Translations under genes and position numbers: made by a program
In this document: in pieces, positions 14,769 to 25,063 of the stretch
How the letters are laid out: each line of letters begins with the position of its first letter
Position numbering within the stretch: position 1 is the first letter of the stretch
The notes under the pieces: model-generated
Databases searched by the model: none
The model's input: only the letters and a program-made list of their open reading frames with translations
Told to the model about the DNA's origin: nothing
From: Verrucomicrobiota bacterium
GTDB lineage: Bacteria; Verrucomicrobiota; Verrucomicrobiia; Verrucomicrobiales; DEV007
Assembly: GCA_963205275.1 (NCBI GenBank)
Contig: CAUJIH010000051.1
Span: forward strand, 1 to 64,000
Direction: 5' to 3'
Length of the DNA stretch: 64,000 bases

Positions 14769-16166
14769 TCAATGAAGTCCACGAAGGAGCAGCTCGGTAT
14801 TGGTCCGGGTGGAACGAATCCCCTTTAACAGCGTCAGCATCGCTTCAGCAGCTGGTCGCTGCACCAGCTGACGCCGGATGGATGTTATTCGATGAAATTC
14901 ATCCGGATGATAAAGCAGGTCGTCCTTTCGCGTCCCACTCTTCTGGAGATTGATCGCTGGAAAAATTCTCGATTCCGCTAACTCTCGATCCAGTACAATC
15001 TCCATGTTCCCGGTTCCTTTGAATTCCTCGAAGATGACATCATCCATGCGGCTATCTGTCTCGATCAAACAAGTCGCTAGAATCGTCAGACTTCCTCCTC
15101 CATCGACATTCCTAGCCGCACCGAAAAATCGGCGAGAGCGTTCGAGCGCCTTCGGAGAAATCCCTCCACTGCCGATCGGTCCCCCTTCCGGTTCTCGTCG
15201 CTTCTTTTGACGTCCCTTTTGAGCACCACCTCCACCACCAGAACGCCCGGATTGTAGCGTCGAGTTATGAGCTCGGGCCAAGCGCGTAAGGCTGTCGAGC
15301 AGCACCACCACATCCTTCCCCATCTCAACCAGTCGCTTCGCTCGGTGCAGAACGATATCCGCGATCCTCGTGTGACGCTCCGACGGCTCGTCGAAGGTAG
15401 AGCTGTAAATCGCTGCATCCACAGTCTCACGAAAATCGGTTACCTCTTCCGGCCGCTCGTCGAGAAGCAAAACGATCAGTTCTACCTCTGGATTATTTTT
15501 CCGGATCGATACCGCGATATTCTTGAGCAAAATCGTCTTTCCGCCTCTCGGTGGTGCCACGATTAACCCTCTCTGCCCTTTTCCCAAGGGCGCAACCAAA
15601 TCAAGCACCCGAGGTGAAAGCAGAGGAGAATCGAGGCTCTCGAGAATAAAGCGCTCCGATGGAAACATCGCCCTCAGATCCTCAAAGTTCGTCGGTGCCT
15701 TCCATTCATTTACAGGGACTCCCTCGATCTCTGTAATCTTAGAAACCGATAAAAACTTCTCCCGCTCCCTCGGAGATGTTACCTGACAACGCACCCGTTG
15801 CCCCGCTCGGAGAGAAAGCGAGCGAATGAATCCGGATGGAACAAAAATATCGTCCATATTCGGAGCGAAACTGAAATCCGGCCACCGAAGAAATCCAACA
15901 GAATCGCCGGTAATCTCCAAGACCCCATCCGCATTCATCTCCGTTCCATGCATCCCGCAATAGCGCAGGATCTCAAATACGAGCTGATGCCTAGAACGAA
16001 CTCCAAGATTGCGCAGACCGTAGGACTGAGCGATCAAGTGCAACTCCGCGATCAACTTTTTCTGAAATTGATTGATATCGACAGATTCTGGAACTGGAGT
16101 GGCCGTCACCGGCAAATCGGGTTTATCGATGTCAGAGTCTGTATCTTTTATTGTACTGGCTTCCAT
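14769..16166 (-). CDS. rho: transcription termination factor Rho with a basic insertion
   Basis: A 465-residue hexameric RNA helicase that ends transcription. The N-terminal RNA-binding domain (about residues 30-150) includes GVLEITGDSVGFLRWPDF and DIFVPSGFIRSLSLRAGQ. The ATPase core has Walker A APPRGGKT, Walker B VVVLLDSLTRLARAHN, RRFFGAARNVDGGGSLTILAT and FKGTGNMEIVLDR. In the Q-loop region, where most Rho proteins have a short SGKxLTGGVD-type loop, this protein has about 25 extra residues rich in Gly, Lys and Arg (GRSGGGGGAQKGRQKKRR onward, about residues 303-333, coding bases near 15165-15255). It lies 10 bp after coaE and 26 bp before rnd. Confidence 0.95.
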   Translation of the reverse strand: MEASTIKDTDSDIDKPDLPVTATPVPESVDINQFQKKLIAELHLIAQSYGLRNLGVRSRHQLVFEILRYCGMHGTEMNADGVLEITGDSVGFLRWPDFSFAPNMDDIFVPSGFIRSLSLRAGQRVRCQVTSPREREKFLSVSKITEIEGVPVNEWKAPTNFEDLRAMFPSERFILESLDSPLLSPRVLDLVAPLGKGQRGLIVAPPRGGKTILLKNIAVSIRKNNPEVELIVLLLDERPEEVTDFRETVDAAIYSSTFDEPSERHTRIADIVLHRAKRLVEMGKDVVVLLDSLTRLARAHNSTLQSGRSGGGGGAQKGRQKKRREPEGGPIGSGGISPKALERSRRFFGAARNVDGGGSLTILATCLIETDSRMDDVIFEEFKGTGNMEIVLDRELAESRIFPAINLQKSGTRKDDLLYHPDEFHRITSIRRQLVQRPAAEAMLTLLKGIRSTRTNTELLLRGLH

Positions 16167-16176
16167 TACTGGGTCT

Positions 16177-16788
16177 CTAAGCTGAAGGAAGAAATCTTTG
16201 GGCTAGCTGTTTCGTCTGCTCATCTAACACAGACAAATCACCGTCATTCCATACGACGAGATCGGCCTGCGCTATCTTTCTTTCTATTGGAAATTGTGAA
16301 TCCAGAATCTTCATCGCCAGAGGCTCGGATAATCTCCGTCCGACAGTGAGTCTTCTCAATTGAACGTCTCTGGAGGCAGCAACCACCAGATCCGCATCTC
16401 TTGCGATGGGAAAATCTACCTCATAGAGGAGAGGAACCTCTACCAGCAAGATCCGCACGCTTCCAGAAAGTGCATCGATGTGTTCCTTCATGTGACGGAG
16501 CACCAGCGGATGCAGCAACCCTTCTACTTTCAGTCGAAATTCAGAATTATCAAATAAGAGTTCTCGAAATGCACTCCGATTTACACTTCCGTCCATAGTG
16601 GGCGGCAAATCAAACTCCGCTGCCAATCGGGTAAGTTCCACGAGAACTTCGGGATCACTCCACACCTGGCGGACTGCCTCGTCGCTGCTAAAGCACGAAA
16701 CTGCCCCCTCTTTTACATAGGCCAAAAAGCTCCGACAGAAATGCGATTTCCCGCAGGCGACTCCTCCCGTAACAGCGAGCGTGCGCAT
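16177..16788 (-). CDS. coaE: dephospho-CoA kinase
   Basis: A 203-residue P-loop kinase catalysing the last step of coenzyme A synthesis. The N-terminus is MRTLAVTGGVACGKSHF with the P-loop GGVACGKS, followed by FSSDEAVRQVW, the family's D-adenosine-binding segment (D-A...). The later part has LLHPLVLRHMKEHI and LLVEVPLLYEVDF, which match the VDVPLLFE motif, and RDVQLRRLTVGRRLS in the lid region. Length is normal. It is the first gene of coaE-rho-rnd, and a terminator of the upstream pilus cluster separates it from the secretin gene. Confidence 0.93.
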   Translation of the reverse strand: MRTLAVTGGVACGKSHFCRSFLAYVKEGAVSCFSSDEAVRQVWSDPEVLVELTRLAAEFDLPPTMDGSVNRSAFRELLFDNSEFRLKVEGLLHPLVLRHMKEHIDALSGSVRILLVEVPLLYEVDFPIARDADLVVAASRDVQLRRLTVGRRLSEPLAMKILDSQFPIERKIAQADLVVWNDGDLSVLDEQTKQLAQRFLPSA

Positions 16789-16808
16789 GGAGTCTATTCT
16801 TTACAAAC

Positions 16809-16840
16809 AGAGAACGCAGTCTCGTGGACTGCGTTCTCCG
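16809..16840 (-). terminator. intrinsic terminator after the secretin gene
   Basis: A perfect 12-bp stem (16810-16821 with 16827-16838, 5-nt loop) lies 32 bp downstream of the secretin stop and 20 bp before coaE. On the minus strand it is followed by a T-containing stretch (TGTTTGT). It ends the pilus-like operon. Confidence 0.75.
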
Positions 16841-16869
16841 AACTTTTCATTCTGTTGCGGCTCTTCCCT

Positions 16870-19512
16870 TTACTTCTGGAAGGGAACCGGACCAGGGGCG
16901 AAGGATGCTGGTGCCGTAACCGGCGGACGCGGAACAGGCTCTGGTAGAGGCTCATCCTTGAGACGCCCATTGATTGGCATCCCTGCAGGATCAATCAGTC
17001 GTGCCGTCACAAAGATCGTGAGATTTCTCTTCAGATGCTGCTCCACGCTTGAGCGGAAGAGGCGTCCCGCGATAGGGATATCGCCCAGGAATGGAATCTT
17101 ATCCTCCACATCCTGAATGTCTTCGCGAATCAATCCACCGAGAGCGACAGTCTGACCATCCCAGATCGTTACCTGCGTCGATACCTTCCGCGTATTAAAG
17201 ACAGGCATCTCGATTCGGTTTTCCGTGATCGTCACCTTTTCATTCAATCCGAGAGCGTTCGTCATCGAGGACTGAATTGGGCTTCCATAGTTGATAAATC
17301 CGTCGAACTCGACAACTTCTGGAGAAAGATTCAGATCGATCGTGAACTCATCGGCTCCCAGTTGAGGATCCACTTCAAGCGTCACACCTGTATTTCGCGT
17401 TTCGAATGCAGTCGGAGTAGCAGGAGTCACGGGAAAGATGTTCCCCATGATTGTAGCACCGCCACCGCCACCGCCAAACTGGTTGGGAATTTCCGGTGGG
17501 TCATACTCAGTGGGATAGATAAATTCACGAATAATCTCGATTTTTGCTCTCTGTCCGCTGCGGGCCAGCACCGAAGGAGCTGAAAGCATGTCCACACCCT
17601 TTTTCTGGCTGAGCGCACGAATCATCACCTGAAACTGAGGGTCAGTAAACACACCGGCGATCCCAAATACCGCCGGAGCCATCAACGAACCTTCGCTGGT
17701 AGCAATCCCCTGAGCAGACTTAATCAATGCATCAATCGAGTTATGATCGATCGCCTGGGCACCCGAACGAAGCCCCGCCGTCAGGTTATTGAAACCTACG
17801 GGAGTTGCAGAACCAGGATTCACGAAACTATAGTTCGCCGAACTACCAGCACCAACCTGATTCCCCACAGTCCCACCAGCACCAAAGACGCGGGGAGTTG
17901 ATCCGAAATTAAAGGGTCCAAGCATCCAGTCGAAACCCAATTCATCACTATCAGTCTGAGTGACCTCCACAAAGCGCGAGGTGATATAAATCTGCTTCTG
18001 CACGTCCTTTGCAAGAGATTCAATATAGGCCTCGATCAACTCCATCTGGGCCTGAGTATTCGTCACAATCAATCGAGAACTGGCAGGACTATAGATTGCG
18101 CTAGCACCCGGGCCAAACGTAATCCCTGCTGCGGTCAGAATCTCCTTTGGTCCTCTCCTTCCAGGAAGCGGAGCTCCTCCACTGCTGTCTTTCGAGTCAA
18201 ACGGATTCGAGGAGGCGGGGGCCGCGCCGCCAGCATCGCCAGAACCACCTGAAGTCAGGAAGGTCGGAGGTACCGTATACGAATTCGTGTGCAACTCGTC
18301 GACCGGCTCAGTCAACGGAATCACCCTGACTGCATATGGCTCAACTTTATACTTTAGTCCCGCCTGAGATGTCGTATAGCGCAGCGCCTCCGCGAGTGGA
18401 ATGCTTGTCAGTCGAAGATTAATGCGCTTATCAGCAGCCCCACCCGCTCCTCCACCAATTCCAGCCATAGGAGCAGCAGCGGAATCGAACGCTGCCCCGC
18501 CGCCCGCCGGGGCGACCGGAGCCGCGACAGGCGCAGCAGAAGACGAGCCGGCATCGAGAATAATATTGATCCCCTTCTTGGTTGGGTCGGACTCTTTCAC
18601 ATCGAGTTCGACACTCTTTTGACTCAGGAATTCCAAAGCATCTGCCAGAGGGGTGTCAGCGAACTCGACACTCGGCAGGATGATCGTTTTCAACTTATCT
18701 TCAGTGCGACGTATTTCCATTGTGCTGGAATCCGTCGGGATATCGATCATCGCTCCACTCTCCAAAGTATCTGGCACTGGAGTCTCCCAACCTGACGCGA
18801 TCTCACGCAGCATTTTGGACCGAGTGTGATTATAAGCCTGATCGTAATAATCCAGCTTATGTTGTTCATTCTTCTCCATCCCTCGGCGCGCAGCAGTATT
18901 GTAGGGATCATCGTTTAATGCCTTGTTGTACTCGCGATCAGCACGATCATAATCCCCTAGATCCATGTATCCACGAGCGGTCTTCAAGGCCAACTTCACA
19001 CGACGCACGCGCTCCAGATAGGAAGGGGTAAGCGCGGGCGAATAGTAATCTGGATCGTTCAGTCTTTCTAGGAGCCGTTTTGCATCGACATTATCGGGAT
19101 CAACGCTCGGCTGAAGCACTTCTTCCACCAAGGCAATCGACTCAGGATACCGACCTTCCTCAGCACGCTGCGTCGCCAAGAGCACGCTCGCTCGAGAAAA
19201 TTGCTTGATATAAGCTCGACGACGAGGCTCTGTCATCGGGGCATCAGGCAGGAGATCCAGCGCCGCACGATACTGATCAATCGCTCCCTGGTAATCTCCG
19301 TCGGCCATCAACTGAGAGCCACGCAATGCAGCTTCGTCAGCCTTTTTCACATTCTCCTGCAGGCGAATCACATAGTTCGTAGCGATCGCGGGGACTCCGC
19401 TACCACTTCCTCCATAGCCACCTGATCCGGCCAATACCGGAAGAGTCATCAGCGGCACGGCCGATGCCAAAATTCCTCCGGCAGCAATGGTTTTCAATCC
19501 TCTTATTTTCAT
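16870..19512 (-). CDS. Amuc_1098-family secretin of a pilus-like system
   Basis: An 880-residue outer-membrane channel protein. Residues 1-28 form a signal peptide. Tetratricopeptide-like repeats span about residues 55-215 (DGDYQGAIDQYRAALDL, GDYDRADREYNKALNDDPYNTAARRG). An STN/N0-type domain follows (about 280-400, ALEFLSQKSVELDV...INIIL; IPLAEALRYTTSQAGLKYKVEPYAV), interrupted by a Gly/Ala/Pro-rich stretch. The secretin core occupies about residues 470-850 with SRLIVTNTQAQMELIEAYIESL, LSAPSVLARSGQRAKIEI and VTIWDGQTVALGGLIREDIQ, plus PFLGDIPIAGRLFRSS. Its neighbours are the other four pilus-like proteins, matching Amuc_1098-1102 of Akkermansia. Confidence 0.9.
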   Translation of the reverse strand: MKIRGLKTIAAGGILASAVPLMTLPVLAGSGGYGGSGSGVPAIATNYVIRLQENVKKADEAALRGSQLMADGDYQGAIDQYRAALDLLPDAPMTEPRRRAYIKQFSRASVLLATQRAEEGRYPESIALVEEVLQPSVDPDNVDAKRLLERLNDPDYYSPALTPSYLERVRRVKLALKTARGYMDLGDYDRADREYNKALNDDPYNTAARRGMEKNEQHKLDYYDQAYNHTRSKMLREIASGWETPVPDTLESGAMIDIPTDSSTMEIRRTEDKLKTIILPSVEFADTPLADALEFLSQKSVELDVKESDPTKKGINIILDAGSSSAAPVAAPVAPAGGGAAFDSAAAPMAGIGGGAGGAADKRINLRLTSIPLAEALRYTTSQAGLKYKVEPYAVRVIPLTEPVDELHTNSYTVPPTFLTSGGSGDAGGAAPASSNPFDSKDSSGGAPLPGRRGPKEILTAAGITFGPGASAIYSPASSRLIVTNTQAQMELIEAYIESLAKDVQKQIYITSRFVEVTQTDSDELGFDWMLGPFNFGSTPRVFGAGGTVGNQVGAGSSANYSFVNPGSATPVGFNNLTAGLRSGAQAIDHNSIDALIKSAQGIATSEGSLMAPAVFGIAGVFTDPQFQVMIRALSQKKGVDMLSAPSVLARSGQRAKIEIIREFIYPTEYDPPEIPNQFGGGGGGATIMGNIFPVTPATPTAFETRNTGVTLEVDPQLGADEFTIDLNLSPEVVEFDGFINYGSPIQSSMTNALGLNEKVTITENRIEMPVFNTRKVSTQVTIWDGQTVALGGLIREDIQDVEDKIPFLGDIPIAGRLFRSSVEQHLKRNLTIFVTARLIDPAGMPINGRLKDEPLPEPVPRPPVTAPASFAPGPVPFQK

Positions 19513-19595
19513 AAATTCGTCTCACTCGTGCGTCTTTTGGCTAAAATGGCAGAACGCGGGCCATCTAAACCCAAAAACGCCCCGCTTGTCAACTA

Positions 19596-20564
19596 TTACT
19601 TCTTGGAAATTTGAATGGTTTTTTCGCTTTCTGTTCCAGTTTGATAAGAAATTTCTACTGAGTTTTCCTCGACTTTTACTACTCGATACTTCGTGTCAGG
19701 ATCGATCACAAGATTGAATGTATCTCCCTCCTTCACATACTGTTTAAAAGAGGGGTCCAATTCGAATTGCATCTCCGCAAAATATGTCGGGATCACCGTA
19801 TTGGCATTTCTAACTAATTCGACTACCTCATTCTTAGGTAGATATGTAATTTTCAACACAGAGGCATCGACTTCGATGCCGCTCGTCGGATTCTTCGCCG
19901 ATCTCTCCTCGTATCCATCCAGACGAAACTGAGCATCCTTTGAAGTTTCGCCAATCTTCAGGTAGAAATTTTCTCCTTTGGGCCATTTCGTCGTCGGGAG
20001 TCGATTGATCTGGAATCGATCTGCATCGGGCTTCGCCGCGAAGCGAAGAGTATAACTCTCCTGCTGGCGCGAGGCAAAAATCAGCTTTCCGGCGTATGGA
20101 GGATGGGATTTAGGATCGATCGGACTGGTCTTGGCATTCCACTCCGTCAGGTTATCGAAACCATCGGAATCCGTATCCTGAGCAAGCACTCCAGAATTTA
20201 GGAAATCTAAGCCATTTTCTCGCAGCCAGGCATTACTCACCGGGGGACGCAGCAGTGGATCCTCCAAGCTCATATCAATCAGGCGACCTCCCGCCTCGAC
20301 GATTGGCACAGATACGAAGAGAGGCAGTGATTTCGCAGGCTCACCTTTTTTCGGATTTGACCAAGTCTGAGTCTTCTCCACAAAAGATGTGGCCACCTTC
20401 GTCATATCCTCCTGTGTCGCAGGAAGATCATCGTTTGGAGCGATCTGCCGCAGTGTGAAATTCTCTGGAAAGCGATTTGTTTCCATTGCGAAAATTACGG
20501 CTACCCCAATCGCGATCATCCCCGCGAGAAGCAGAATCATTTTGTCCCAACTCTCCTTGTTCAT
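19596..20564 (-). CDS. Amuc_1099-family pilus-like protein
   Basis: A 322-residue bitopic protein. One transmembrane helix near the N-terminus (residues 8-27, MILLLAGMIAIGVAVIFAME) is followed by a periplasmic domain. The middle part includes DTDSDGFDNLTEWNAKTSPIDPKSHPP, a calcium-binding thrombospondin type 3-like or dockerin-like motif, and the C-terminus ends in beta-strand-rich VKEGDTFNLVIDPDTKYRVVKVEENSVEISY, reminiscent of a PilP-type beta domain. The start overlaps the stop of the Amuc_1100-like gene by 4 bp. Family assignment rests on position in the cluster and this architecture. Confidence 0.8.
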   Translation of the reverse strand: MNKESWDKMILLLAGMIAIGVAVIFAMETNRFPENFTLRQIAPNDDLPATQEDMTKVATSFVEKTQTWSNPKKGEPAKSLPLFVSVPIVEAGGRLIDMSLEDPLLRPPVSNAWLRENGLDFLNSGVLAQDTDSDGFDNLTEWNAKTSPIDPKSHPPYAGKLIFASRQQESYTLRFAAKPDADRFQINRLPTTKWPKGENFYLKIGETSKDAQFRLDGYEERSAKNPTSGIEVDASVLKITYLPKNEVVELVRNANTVIPTYFAEMQFELDPSFKQYVKEGDTFNLVIDPDTKYRVVKVEENSVEISYQTGTESEKTIQISKK

Positions 20565-21568
20565 TTACCCTCCTTCTTTCCTTGTGCCGACGAGGTCTCT
20601 TCCGAACTCTCGCCCCTAGTATTATCAAAACGAGTAATATCCACCACTAAGTAGACATTCAGCTTCTCGAGCCCCATCAGAACCCGAGCGTCCAAGTCCG
20701 CCTTAATGAACCCCGCCGCCTTCGCCTTGGCAGCAACCTCCTCTTCCGAAGCCGTTCCCTGCCCCCATTCAGCAAGCATCTCCGGCGTGGCGACTTGTTT
20801 TGTGTTCGGATCCTCATAGCGCGTGGTTGCCACATCTCCACCAGCCGTTTGCTTTCTGGCACCCTCAAGGGAACTATTTTGCACCTTCATCACGCGAACA
20901 ATGTAGAAAAATTCGCGATCATTCGCCAGCTCATTGATAAATTTTTGCAAGGAGTCATAGGACCCAGTGAAGCGATAGCGAACCGGATATTTATGGACAG
21001 TGCCTGTCTCTCCTTCCTTCGGGCCTGCAGATTCGCCAAAAATTGGGTCTCTCTGGAACTCAGAAAGCTTTTCAGCACCACATGTCAATAGTTTCTGCAG
21101 CATGTGATCGATCGCCTCTAACTCGTAGTCGAGGATCGGGACGAGATCCTGCCCCGGCATCGTATTCGCATAGCTGTCGAAGCCCAACTGAAAATCGCTG
21201 GACGATTCGATCTCCATTTTCGCCAGAGTTGCCGCCTTACGGAACTCTTCCACTTTAGTTTTCACACGCACCTGAAAATCTGTATTCCTCAACTCTGTAT
21301 TGAGCGGGCGCTGAAAGGAATTCAAAGTCTGTGACAGTGCCGTCACAGAGGTCTTGTACGAATCGACTCTCGCACTAAGGCCCTTGGAATTTTCATCGTT
21401 CGGATAAGGAGCTTTACGCTCCATGCTTTCCACCGTGCTGACCTTGGCATCCCAAGAATCCAGAGCATCTCGATACTTCCCGTAACTGGAGGCCGCGTAA
21501 TAACCTCCTCCTCCCAATGCCAATACAGCAATCACGCCATATGTTGATAACCAAGCTTTCGAACTCAT
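20561..21568 (-). CDS. Amuc_1100-family pilus-like protein
   Basis: A 335-residue protein with one N-terminal transmembrane helix (residues 9-27) and a periplasmic part with a helical region (SYGKYRDALDSWDAKVSTVESMERK) then a PilO-like ferredoxin fold (about 110-300; LVPILDYELEAIDHMLQKLLTCGAEKLSEF; YRFTGSYDSLQKFINELANDREFFYIVRVMKVQ). A. muciniphila Amuc_1100, of similar size and gene order, is an outer-membrane-associated protein reported to signal through TLR2. That immune activity cannot be assumed here, because the family occurs in environmental Verrucomicrobia too. It probably pairs with the PilM/PilN-like fusion upstream as PilO does. Confidence 0.85.
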   Translation of the reverse strand: MSSKAWLSTYGVIAVLALGGGGYYAASSYGKYRDALDSWDAKVSTVESMERKAPYPNDENSKGLSARVDSYKTSVTALSQTLNSFQRPLNTELRNTDFQVRVKTKVEEFRKAATLAKMEIESSSDFQLGFDSYANTMPGQDLVPILDYELEAIDHMLQKLLTCGAEKLSEFQRDPIFGESAGPKEGETGTVHKYPVRYRFTGSYDSLQKFINELANDREFFYIVRVMKVQNSSLEGARKQTAGGDVATTRYEDPNTKQVATPEMLAEWGQGTASEEEVAAKAKAAGFIKADLDARVLMGLEKLNVYLVVDITRFDNTRGESSEETSSAQGKKEGK

Positions 21569-21587
21569 AATTGATCAAATCTTCCCT

Positions 21588-23339
21588 TTATTTCGTATAT
21601 CGAACCCTGTTCGCTTCGGGAAGAGGGAGAATCATTTTAAAAGTGTAAGCGAAGCGGTCAGCAGAAGTCCCCGCATCCACCGTCACTGCCTCGCTAATAT
21701 CAAGATCCTTGAGAGCGAAGAAATTCTCTCCGTCTGTTTCGGCATCGCTCTTCAGTCGCTGAAAATACTCATACACAACCTTTGATCCGTGGGGATTTTC
21801 TCGCCAGAGCCCCTGAAGCTGAAATGCGTCAATGGACGATTCGGCCCCAGCGGCTGACGTAGCATCGGGACGATTCCCTGCCACACTATCTTCAACAACT
21901 GATTGTCCACCTGAAAGAGGCTCCAGAAGAGTCATGAAAAGAACATCATTTTCCATCTTCCGCCCCAGATAGTTAAAGAGCCGCACCCAGTAGGCTCGAT
22001 GACGAATCGCTTCAATGTACGGATTGAGATCACCGTCAATGCTGCTAATCTCTTTCTCCAAGGAAACGATCTTCTTGTCGAACCCCGCCAATGTTTCGGC
22101 TTTTTTATTAATCTCTTCAGCGTGATTTTCTGCGACGACTGCTCCATTCGAGAAATAGAATCCCATCGCACAAAGCAAGGCAGTCAAGAGGACAAGAGCA
22201 GCCACGAGGTTAAACTTGCGCGAATCCAGATCGCGGCGTTTGACCACAGACTCAGGGAGAAGATCGATCTGCACCGGAACCGCACCACTTCCAGCGAGTG
22301 CGCACCCAACCAAGTCTCCGAACATGTGCCCCTTCGTCAACACAGTGTCCATTGTCGCTCCATTGGCAACTGTCACATTTCGGAAAGGATTAAAGTAATC
22401 GACCGGGAGATTGAGCTTCTCTGCAAAGAATTCGCGAATAAACGGAAGACTGGCAGTCGCTCCACTGAGTAGCACGGACGTGGGAGCAGAGCCGCCTTGT
22501 TGACTCCGATAGAAATTGATCGTTCGCATTACCTCGGAATGGAGGCGCGTCAGAGACTGGCGAACCACTTTCGACATGGCAGCAATTTCCGGATCTTCGT
22601 GATCGGCATACGGCCCACCGAGCGCAACAAATCCATCGAGTACTTTGCGAGCGTCCGCCGTAGCGAAATTCATCCCGAACTCCTTCGCGATGGTGCGCGA
22701 TAGGTCAGAGCCCCCGATTTTGACCGTCCGAATGAAGAGCTTATTCCCCTCCATAAAGATCATATCGGTCATCCGAGCACCGATATCGACGAGAAGAGTC
22801 GCCTCTTGCTTGAGATCGGGGTAATTAAACCGAAGCGCATTGAAGAGAGCCACCGGGGACATCGCCGCACCTTCCGAACGAAGGCCAGAGTCAGAGACCA
22901 GAGCGTCTAGTTCGCCCAATTCATCGGCCTTCACAGCAGCCAAAACGACCTCCATCTCCACGTCATCTTGGTTTCCCATCAGTTGATAACCCCAGACGAC
23001 CTCATTGATCGGATAGGGCACCTGCTGTGCGGCTTCGAATTCTACAATCTGATCTACCTGTGATCCATCCAGTGCCGGAAGACTGGCGAATTTAATCAAC
23101 ACAGGGAGAGAGGAAATGACATAGCGCGAAGACTCGCCCTTCACTTTGAGAGCATTCACGATCTGTCGAATCGCCTGCCCTGCCTGGGCATTCCGAGCGT
23201 CTTCCTCACTCGGATCGCCAACCAGATCCTTCCGCTCAACTCGCTCGAGTTTTAATCCCCCTCCTGAAGTCTTGGAGAAGATGGCTCCGGTCACTTGCTG
23301 AGACCCCAAACTCAGGGCAAAAATTCGATTCTTCGCCAT
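21588..23339 (-). CDS. Amuc_1101-family PilM-like ATPase fused to a PilN-like segment
   Basis: A 583-residue protein. Residues 1-345 form an actin-like PilM ATPase: start MAKNRIFALSLGSQQVTGAIF, TLLVDIGARMTDMIFMEGNKLFIRTVKIGGSDLSRTIAKEF (phosphate-2 region) and VLLSGATASLPFIREFFAEKLNLPV (adenosine-binding region). A transmembrane helix at about residues 372-392 follows, then a coiled coil (AENHAEEINKKAETLAGFDKKIVSLEKEISSI) and a periplasmic domain like PilN. In most type IV pilus systems PilM and PilN are separate, so this is a fusion spanning both sides of the inner membrane. It lies 19 bp before the Amuc_1100-like gene. Confidence 0.85.
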   Translation of the reverse strand: MAKNRIFALSLGSQQVTGAIFSKTSGGGLKLERVERKDLVGDPSEEDARNAQAGQAIRQIVNALKVKGESSRYVISSLPVLIKFASLPALDGSQVDQIVEFEAAQQVPYPINEVVWGYQLMGNQDDVEMEVVLAAVKADELGELDALVSDSGLRSEGAAMSPVALFNALRFNYPDLKQEATLLVDIGARMTDMIFMEGNKLFIRTVKIGGSDLSRTIAKEFGMNFATADARKVLDGFVALGGPYADHEDPEIAAMSKVVRQSLTRLHSEVMRTINFYRSQQGGSAPTSVLLSGATASLPFIREFFAEKLNLPVDYFNPFRNVTVANGATMDTVLTKGHMFGDLVGCALAGSGAVPVQIDLLPESVVKRRDLDSRKFNLVAALVLLTALLCAMGFYFSNGAVVAENHAEEINKKAETLAGFDKKIVSLEKEISSIDGDLNPYIEAIRHRAYWVRLFNYLGRKMENDVLFMTLLEPLSGGQSVVEDSVAGNRPDATSAAGAESSIDAFQLQGLWRENPHGSKVVYEYFQRLKSDAETDGENFFALKDLDISEAVTVDAGTSADRFAYTFKMILPLPEANRVRYTK

Positions 23340-23385
23340 AATGCGACTCTATTGCTAAAAAATTCGGATAAACTCAATGATCGCT

Positions 23386-23997
23386 TTACTTCGCCGGACG
23401 CTCAACATCCGCGTAACGGTCGATCCACAGGAGGGCAAAAGGAGTCTCTGCCTTGCCCAGAACTCCGGGCGTAACGCCAGTAGCCTCCCAGAACTTGCTA
23501 TTGGTCGTAGAAACGCCCCCTACGATGACACCGTTATAGACCACCTCGACTCCAATTCCCTTCACATTACTGCTCTGGAAACGACGAAAGTCTCCCGTGA
23601 GATCGCCCAGCGTAGAGGGCGAGATGTAAGCGCTGGAAAATGTCTTCTCTCCCGTCGGCACGTTGACGTGCTTGACATCTCCGGTAAGAGTTTTCGGGGT
23701 TCCATCCTTGTCGACGAGGCCCACGTAGTAGCGAAAGAGGAGTTCCTTAATCACCGCCTTACGAGGTCCCTTCACCTCAAATGGAATCTCGATTTCCAGC
23801 CAGTCACGCGGATTGGGAATATTTTTTGTCTTTACATCGCCCGCCTGAAAGTTCGGAGTCTTCTGCGTGTCATAGGACGGGCTATCGACTTTCACGTCAC
23901 CCATCTGTAATTGAATTACCTGTTGGGCCTCGACACTAGAGGCAGTGAAGAACGAAGCTGTAGCGATTAAAAGCAGAACAGAGAGGGATCGGATCAT
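23386..23997 (-). CDS. Amuc_1102-family pilus-like protein
   Basis: A 203-residue secreted protein with a signal peptide of about 24 residues (MIRSLSVLLLIATASFFTASSVEA). The mature part is beta-strand-rich (IQLQMGDVKVDSPSY; RDWLEIEIPFEVKGPRKAVIKELLFRYYVGL; GIGVEVVYNGVIVGGVSTTNSKFW) and ends with a conserved VLGKAETPFALLWIDRYADVERP. It is the first gene of the five-gene pilus-like operon, 46 bp upstream of the PilM-like gene, and holds the same place as Amuc_1102 in Akkermansia. Its biochemical role is unknown. Confidence 0.82.
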   Translation of the reverse strand: MIRSLSVLLLIATASFFTASSVEAQQVIQLQMGDVKVDSPSYDTQKTPNFQAGDVKTKNIPNPRDWLEIEIPFEVKGPRKAVIKELLFRYYVGLVDKDGTPKTLTGDVKHVNVPTGEKTFSSAYISPSTLGDLTGDFRRFQSSNVKGIGVEVVYNGVIVGGVSTTNSKFWEATGVTPGVLGKAETPFALLWIDRYADVERPAK

Positions 23998-24088: not shown

Positions 24089-25063
24089 CTAAATTTTGTC
24101 GAGAGTAATTTTTTCTTTAAAATATTTTATCGTATTTGCGATTCCTTCTTCGAACGAAACCTGAGGCTCCCAACTCAATTTTTCACGAGCGCGACTGATA
24201 TCAGGCCTGCGAACCTTGGGATCATCTACCGGAAGTGTACGGAACTCGATCATTGGCGCTCCAGGGATCAATTTTTGAATTTTTTCAGCCAGTTGGAGAA
24301 CAGTCATTTCACTAGGGTTTCCAATATTCACTGGCTCATGACAATCGCTCTGAGAAAGTCGATAGATGCCTTCGATCAGATCGGAGACGTAGCAGAAACT
24401 TCTCGACTGACTCCCGTCTCCAAAGACGGTGAGCGGCCTACCGGCGAGAGCCTCACCGACGAAGGCTGGAATCACCCTGCCGTCCTTCAGTCGCATCCTA
24501 GGACCGTAGGTATTGAAAATTCTCACGATCTTCGTATCGAGTCCATGAGCACGATGATACGCCATCGTCATCGCCTCGGAAAAGCGTTTCGCCTCATCAT
24601 ACACCCCGCGCGGGCCGATGGGATTCACATTGCCCCAGTAGTCTTCCCGCTGAGGATGCACCAAGGGATCTCCGTACACCTCCGAAGTCGATGCCAGAAG
24701 AAATGTGGCATTCTTCGCTCGGGCCAGTCCCAGCGCATTGTGCGTGCCGAGGGAACCCACTTTCAACGTCTGGATCGGAAACTCCAGATAGTCGAACGGG
24801 CTGGCGGGAGAGGCGAAATGGAAGACGTAATCAAGCGACCCGGCATAGTCGATGTATTTCGACACGTCTTGCTCGATGAATTCCACATCCGGGTTGTTGC
24901 GAAGATGCTCGATATTATCCACGGACCCGGTAATCAGGTTATCCATTACTACGACTCTGTGCCCGGCGGCAAGAAGTCGATCTGCCAAGTGTGAGCCAAG
25001 AAATCCCGTGCCTCCCGTGATGAGCGAGACAGGTTTATGAGGGCGTGTGGCAGATTCTGGCAT
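24089..25063 (-). CDS. UDP-glucuronate decarboxylase (UDP-xylose synthase)
   Basis: A 324-residue extended SDR enzyme. The NAD-binding motif is [10 protein letters not shown], the catalytic Ser is in [11 protein letters not shown], and the Tyr-Lys pair is in [12 protein letters not shown]. The stretch [19 protein letters not shown] is diagnostic of UDP-xylose synthases (EC 4.1.1.35), which convert UDP-glucuronate to UDP-xylose for surface polysaccharide. Other family landmarks are [13 protein letters not shown] and [18 protein letters not shown]. Length is normal. A terminator between it and the pilus operon was not found; 91 bp separate them. Confidence 0.9.

Follow-up and report, generated by a model that had tools for sequence, protein, structure and literature searches.

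Do five consecutive minus-strand genes in a 64,000-nt stretch of a Verrucomicrobiales genome (lineage DEV007; the stretch is hereafter called the window) represent the Amuc_1098-1102 cluster known from Akkermansia, and what machine would they build with no pilin or pilus motor gene close by? The Akkermansia cluster Amuc_1098-1102 has been described before, with Amuc_1099-1102 designated MUL2 (Ottman 2017, PMC5332112; ISME J 2026, PMC13174399). The features of the locus are as follows.

14769-16166 (-): rho, transcription termination factor, conserved neighbour (Pfam Rho_RNA_bind, 1.6e-16)
16177-16788 (-): coaE, dephospho-CoA kinase, conserved neighbour outside the machine (Pfam, 1.1e-27)
16789-16869 (-): intrinsic terminator between the secretin gene and coaE, 13-bp stem, tail TGTTTGT
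16870-19512 (-): Amuc_1098 orthologue, 880 aa, TPR and secretin domains, putative PilQ role (NF042912, Secretin Pfam)
19513-19595 (-): spacer between the 1099 and 1098 genes with a TTGACA element and a hairpin (comparison of loci; fold z = -2.7)
19596-20564 (-): Amuc_1099 orthologue, 322 aa, transmembrane helix, EF-hand-type loop and C-terminal beta-domains (NF042425)
20561-21568 (-): Amuc_1100 orthologue, 335 aa, PilO/GspM-like bitopic protein (NF038287)
21588-23339 (-): Amuc_1101 (MUL2B) orthologue, 583 aa (NF045709, Pfam PilM_2)
23386-23997 (-): Amuc_1102 (MUL2A) orthologue, 203 aa, signal peptide and secreted beta-domain (NF042424, PDB 7dsz)
24089-25063 (-): upstream NAD-dependent nucleotide-sugar epimerase/dehydratase, UDP-xylose-synthase-like (Pfam Epimerase, 7e-50)

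Identity and genomic place of the operon

All five open reading frames are present on the minus strand (23997-16870), in the order 1102-1101-1100-1099-1098, and each matches its own NCBIfam equivalog model, as expected from the original prediction that the genes correspond in order to the Akkermansia families. Four of the five proteins score above the curated cut-offs, namely the orthologues of Amuc_1098 (Amuc_1098_fam, 2.1e-295, 982 bits, cut-off 750), Amuc_1099 (Amuc_1099_fam, 2.6e-57, 194.8 bits, cut-off 50), Amuc_1100 (Amuc_1100_fam, 2e-54, 185.2 bits, cut-off 180), and Amuc_1102 (Amuc_1102_rel, 1.3e-39, 135.8 bits, cut-off 55). The Amuc_1101 orthologue falls under its cut-off (Amuc_1101_fam, 6.5e-177, 590 bits against 650) with a match over its full length. 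Models of ordinary type II secretion and type IV pilus proteins (GspD, PilQ, and PilM) score far lower. The Amuc_1102 orthologue, whose family alignment comprises 62 sequences, also matches the crystal structure of Amuc_1102 by sequence (PDB 7dsz, E = 8e-24). The family models, the gene order on one strand, and the downstream coaE-rho pair place the locus within Amuc_1098-1102/MUL2. The original observation is confirmed, and the interpretation attached to it is partly supported.

A survey of one genome per species (84,980 species) recovered 80 related loci, 63 of which carry all five genes in the same order, and nearly all of the incomplete loci are interrupted by a contig end. In most loci with enough sequence, coaE, rho, and rnd follow downstream, with exceptions mainly in Chthoniobacterales. 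The genomic context had been considered different from that of Akkermansia, but an Akkermansia genome (locus L116), whose Amuc_1100 is nearly identical to that of PDB 6lad, has the arrangement rho-coaE-1098-1099-1100-1101-1102, and relatives share it; the context is therefore the standard one. MUL2 has likewise been reported as conserved in Akkermansiaceae and often present in other Verrucomicrobiales families, and it is drawn with the same dephospho-CoA kinase and rho flanks (ISME J 2026, PMC13174399). Although all five families, their order, their strand, and the coaE-rho flank are shared with the Akkermansia cluster, the genome of the window belongs to another family of the same order, and its secretin is 39% identical to the Akkermansia copy. 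The locus is thus an ordinary one, previously described, phylum-wide, and at its usual place. One locus (L068, 8155-11001) has the secretin gene alone, and the roughly 8 kb upstream of it lack the 1099-1102 genes.

The upstream epimerase gene is a further difference from Akkermansia, as none was found in the L116 stretch searched. Such a gene lies upstream in 33 of the 80 loci, across both Verrucomicrobiales and Chthoniobacterales. The neighbouring surface-sugar gene noted in the original prediction is a conserved epimerase, but its assignment to UDP-xylose synthesis is unconfirmed, because every NCBIfam match falls below cut-off.

The transcription unit has two features that had been read from the letters and were borne out. 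The Amuc_1100 and Amuc_1099 genes overlap by ATGA (20564-20561), as seen directly in the sequence, and an intrinsic terminator directly follows the secretin gene. The 13-bp stem of this terminator is followed by a U-rich tail and has a folding energy of -28.2 kcal/mol (z = -4.2), with no shuffled sequence equally stable. Hairpins with T-runs occupy the same site between the secretin gene and coaE in nearly all of 12 relatives examined. A simple terminator scan gave no excess over shuffled sequences and missed the real secretin terminator, which was revealed by folding.

A probable alignment platform for a type IV pilus-like machine

In our view the locus most probably encodes the trans-envelope alignment platform for a type IV pilus-like machine (probability of about 0.78). 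The central component would be the Amuc_1101 orthologue, which consists of a cytoplasmic PilM domain, one transmembrane helix, and a periplasmic part with a PilN-like coiled coil and a ferredoxin-like domain. The PilM domain is recognized by Pfam PilM_2 (3.9e-26) and has its best structural matches by sequence in PilM of Myxococcus (3.8e-30) and Thermus. A profile of the C-terminal half matches Myxococcus PilN (E = 1.4e-6), so that the proposed PilM/PilN fusion is sustained by sequence and ties the protein to the type IVa alignment complex through both halves. Among fold matches to the predicted structure (pLDDT 87), PilO and XcpY rank first, though they are not significant on their own. At the inner membrane, this PilM-PilN fusion would be joined by Amuc_1100, acting as PilO. 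The crystal structures of Amuc_1100 (PDB 6lad, 6kny, and 6laf) were found by sequence, with a profile match to 6kny/6lad at 1e-42, and Amuc_1100 has been described as having two alpha-beta-beta motifs that resemble proteins of type IV pili and of type II secretion (PMC13119276). In the whole genome, the Pfam PilO model gave a single match, a weak one (E = 0.31), which fell on the Amuc_1100 orthologue.

Amuc_1099 may take the place of PilP and link the inner membrane to the secretin. No PilP homology was found by sequence or by fold search, the whole-chain fold search being a weak test, and the predicted structure (pLDDT 91) returned only low-scoring and unrelated fold matches; the PilP role is accordingly drawn from operon position. 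The family profiles were also compared with E. coli HofO, HofP, and HofN, each as one sequence, which holds too little information for the comparison to be of use. The protein contains an EF-hand-type loop (D130-x-D132-x-D134-G-F-x4-E141, residues 130-141, at about 20142-20177 of the window, minus strand), in which D130, D132, D134, and E141 are invariant in all 64 sequences. The model TSP3_bac recognizes this loop in 32 of the 64 family members, and the loop is a candidate calcium-type loop judging from its residue pattern.

The Amuc_1098 orthologue could form the outer-membrane channel in the manner of PilQ, and the name PilQ has been given to Amuc_1098 (PMC10688800). The earlier reading of a TPR-plus-secretin protein holds, as both domains are found by Pfam (Secretin, 1.2e-33), and the protein is a member of the secretin superfamily. 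GspD and PilQ structures match it about equally well, and the GspD model scores 144.8 bits (cut-off 351) versus 108.9 bits for the PilQ model. Amuc_1102 may be a secreted accessory or surface subunit.

This arrangement resembles the type IVa PilMNOPQ systems of Myxococcus and Pseudomonas, and hofMNOPQ of E. coli, in its M-N-O-P-Q order and in the homology of PilM, PilN, and the secretin. It differs in that PilM and PilN are fused, the secretin carries TPRs at its N terminus, Amuc_1099 contains a calcium-type loop and lacks detectable homology to PilP, and Amuc_1102 is an extra secreted protein. A locus studied for its host effects in Akkermansia is hereby tied to the pilMNOPQ alignment complex, and it belongs to the general envelope machinery of the phylum rather than being a gut- or mucin-specific invention.

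Unlinked pilus genes and alternative machines

Alignment-complex operons of type IV pili are usually unlinked from the pilB, pilC, and pilin genes, and hofMNOPQ in E. coli stands alone in this way. It is correct that no pilin, PilB, or PilC gene lies near the operon, and all such matches in the genome are on other contigs. Contig 69 (L018, 1787-7184, minus strand) carries two adjacent PilB/GspE-type ATPase genes, with one PilC/GspF-type gene and a pilin gene after them, and contig 100 carries a pair of PilT/PilU-family ATPases, both above cut-off. Other GspE/GspF-like genes and many pilin-like genes are also present in the genome. The two PilB-like ATPases are below the cut-offs of both the PilB and GspE models and were assigned to PilB by neighbourhood and best score; therefore, they could instead serve type II secretion. 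The doubling of the PilB/GspE-type ATPase on contig 69 is unusual in itself. Given the usual separation of these genes and their presence elsewhere in the genome, the missing neighbours are no argument against a pilus, and the suggestion that the system may not make a normal pilus does not follow from them.

The Amuc_1101 orthologue is the sole PilM_2-family gene found genome-wide, in an assembly with about 4% of the genome missing. Of 195 genomes sampled across Verrucomicrobiota, 188 have a match to the Amuc_1101 family, in many cases a distant one, and 187 have PilT. Six of the eight genomes without PilT also lack a strong Amuc_1101 match, and 16 of the 195 carry PilT but show no strong match to Amuc_1101. 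The co-occurrence is significant by Fisher's test uncorrected for kinship (p = 2.5e-5), and because of kinship the six shared absences amount to about two independent losses. The unlinked pilus genes, the sole PilM_2 gene, and the co-occurrence with PilT make a platform serving a retractable, type IV pilus-like fibre the simplest reading. We infer that PilB, the PilT/U motors, PilC, and the pilins encoded elsewhere work with the Amuc_1098-1102 platform. By analogy with Akkermansia, and judging by published work on relatives, the fibre would take hold of complex glycans and pull them in as it extends and retracts. An attachment model for MUL2 in Akkermansia and related aquatic forms is set out in the ISME J 2026 article (PMC13174399).

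The same platform and secretin could instead constitute a pilus-free import or secretion channel across the envelope, which would move glycans or proteins without a fibre. The operon has neither pilin nor motor, and two genomes with the Amuc_1101 family (G116 and G136) have no PilT match at E < 1e-70, both of which fit such a channel. However, the PilM proteins of known systems bind to the motor complexes of the pilus, the genome encodes PilC, pilins, PilB-like ATPases, and two ATPases of the retraction type with no second PilM_2 gene to serve them, and PilT and Amuc_1101 occur together across the phylum, which makes the channel unlikely. Still less probable is a type II secretion system that would have Amuc_1098-1101 as its equivalents of GspD, C, M, and L and export glycan-degrading enzymes: shared membership of the secretin superfamily, the slightly higher score to GspD than to PilQ models, GspL/GspM-like folds, weak T2SSM_b matches in 6 of 60 Amuc_1100 family members (best 4.2e-4), and several GspE/GspF-like genes in the genome speak for it, but Amuc_1101 has a true PilM domain rather than a GspL-type cytoplasmic domain together with its PilN match, the Amuc-family scores are far higher, the GspD match is below cut-off with no type II secretion match for the other four genes in a search for GspL, GspC, GspM, and GspD, and other, distant secretins of the genome on contigs 70, 6, 82, and 90 could serve such systems.

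The second secretin and the 1099-1098 spacer

The main point of interest beyond the alignment platform is a near-universal and little-noticed second secretin of the Amuc_1098 family. In the genome of the window it is an 848-aa protein encoded on contig 87 (L017, 7954-10500, minus strand; about G000:C87:21953-24499), which scores 800 bits against the Amuc_1098 family model (cut-off 750). It is 41% identical to the operon copy, about as similar as the Akkermansia operon copy given above. No 1099-1102 genes lie alongside it, and no conserved neighbourhood was found beyond close relatives. At least two Amuc_1098-family secretins are encoded by 72 of 76 Verrucomicrobiales genomes, including Akkermansia-like ones.

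In a tree of 78 secretin sequences (a quick search with SH-aLRT supports only), most second copies cluster together, 26 sequences of four families in a group separate from the operon copies (SH-aLRT 99). The second copies of the Akkermansia family lie elsewhere on long branches near the base of the tree, and the deep nodes are unsure because of long branches. Several Chthoniobacterales loci (L069, L070, L075, L083, L085, L086, L088, L096, L104, and others) have two tandem secretin genes directly behind 1099, each forming a clade (99-100) within a group of their own, which apparently reflects an independent duplication. Since the Chthoniobacterales copies group apart from the second copies of Verrucomicrobiales, the secretin pair arose at least twice. 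An identification of the contig 87 secretin with a Chthoniobacterales tandem copy was not borne out, as the proximal and distal copies both fall within one Chthoniobacterales clade in the tree, separate from the group of second copies in Verrucomicrobiales. In the family to which the window belongs, one genome (G204) has three Amuc_1098-family secretins, two in tandem within the operon (L126, 5826-10973) and one elsewhere (see also L138).

It is a speculative and rather doubtful possibility that Verrucomicrobiales run two specialized Amuc_1098-family secretins off one PilM-based platform and that Chthoniobacterales arrived at such a pair anew through tandem duplication. If so, one channel could serve the pilus and the other glycan uptake or a different filament, and this division of labour would account for how polymers are pulled into the periplasm. 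Both the second secretin and the invariant calcium-type loop of Amuc_1099 are amenable to testing, and neither is mentioned in the papers on the locus that were consulted here.

The spacer preceding the operon secretin gene may also have a regulatory role. In 21 of 69 loci, all of them close relatives, a TTGACA element lies no more than 40 nt from the 1099 stop codon, against 0-2 loci at the other junctions. From this distribution, the element is a candidate internal promoter or a regulatory site (operator) for the secretin gene. In other families, the same spacer carries different conserved motifs.
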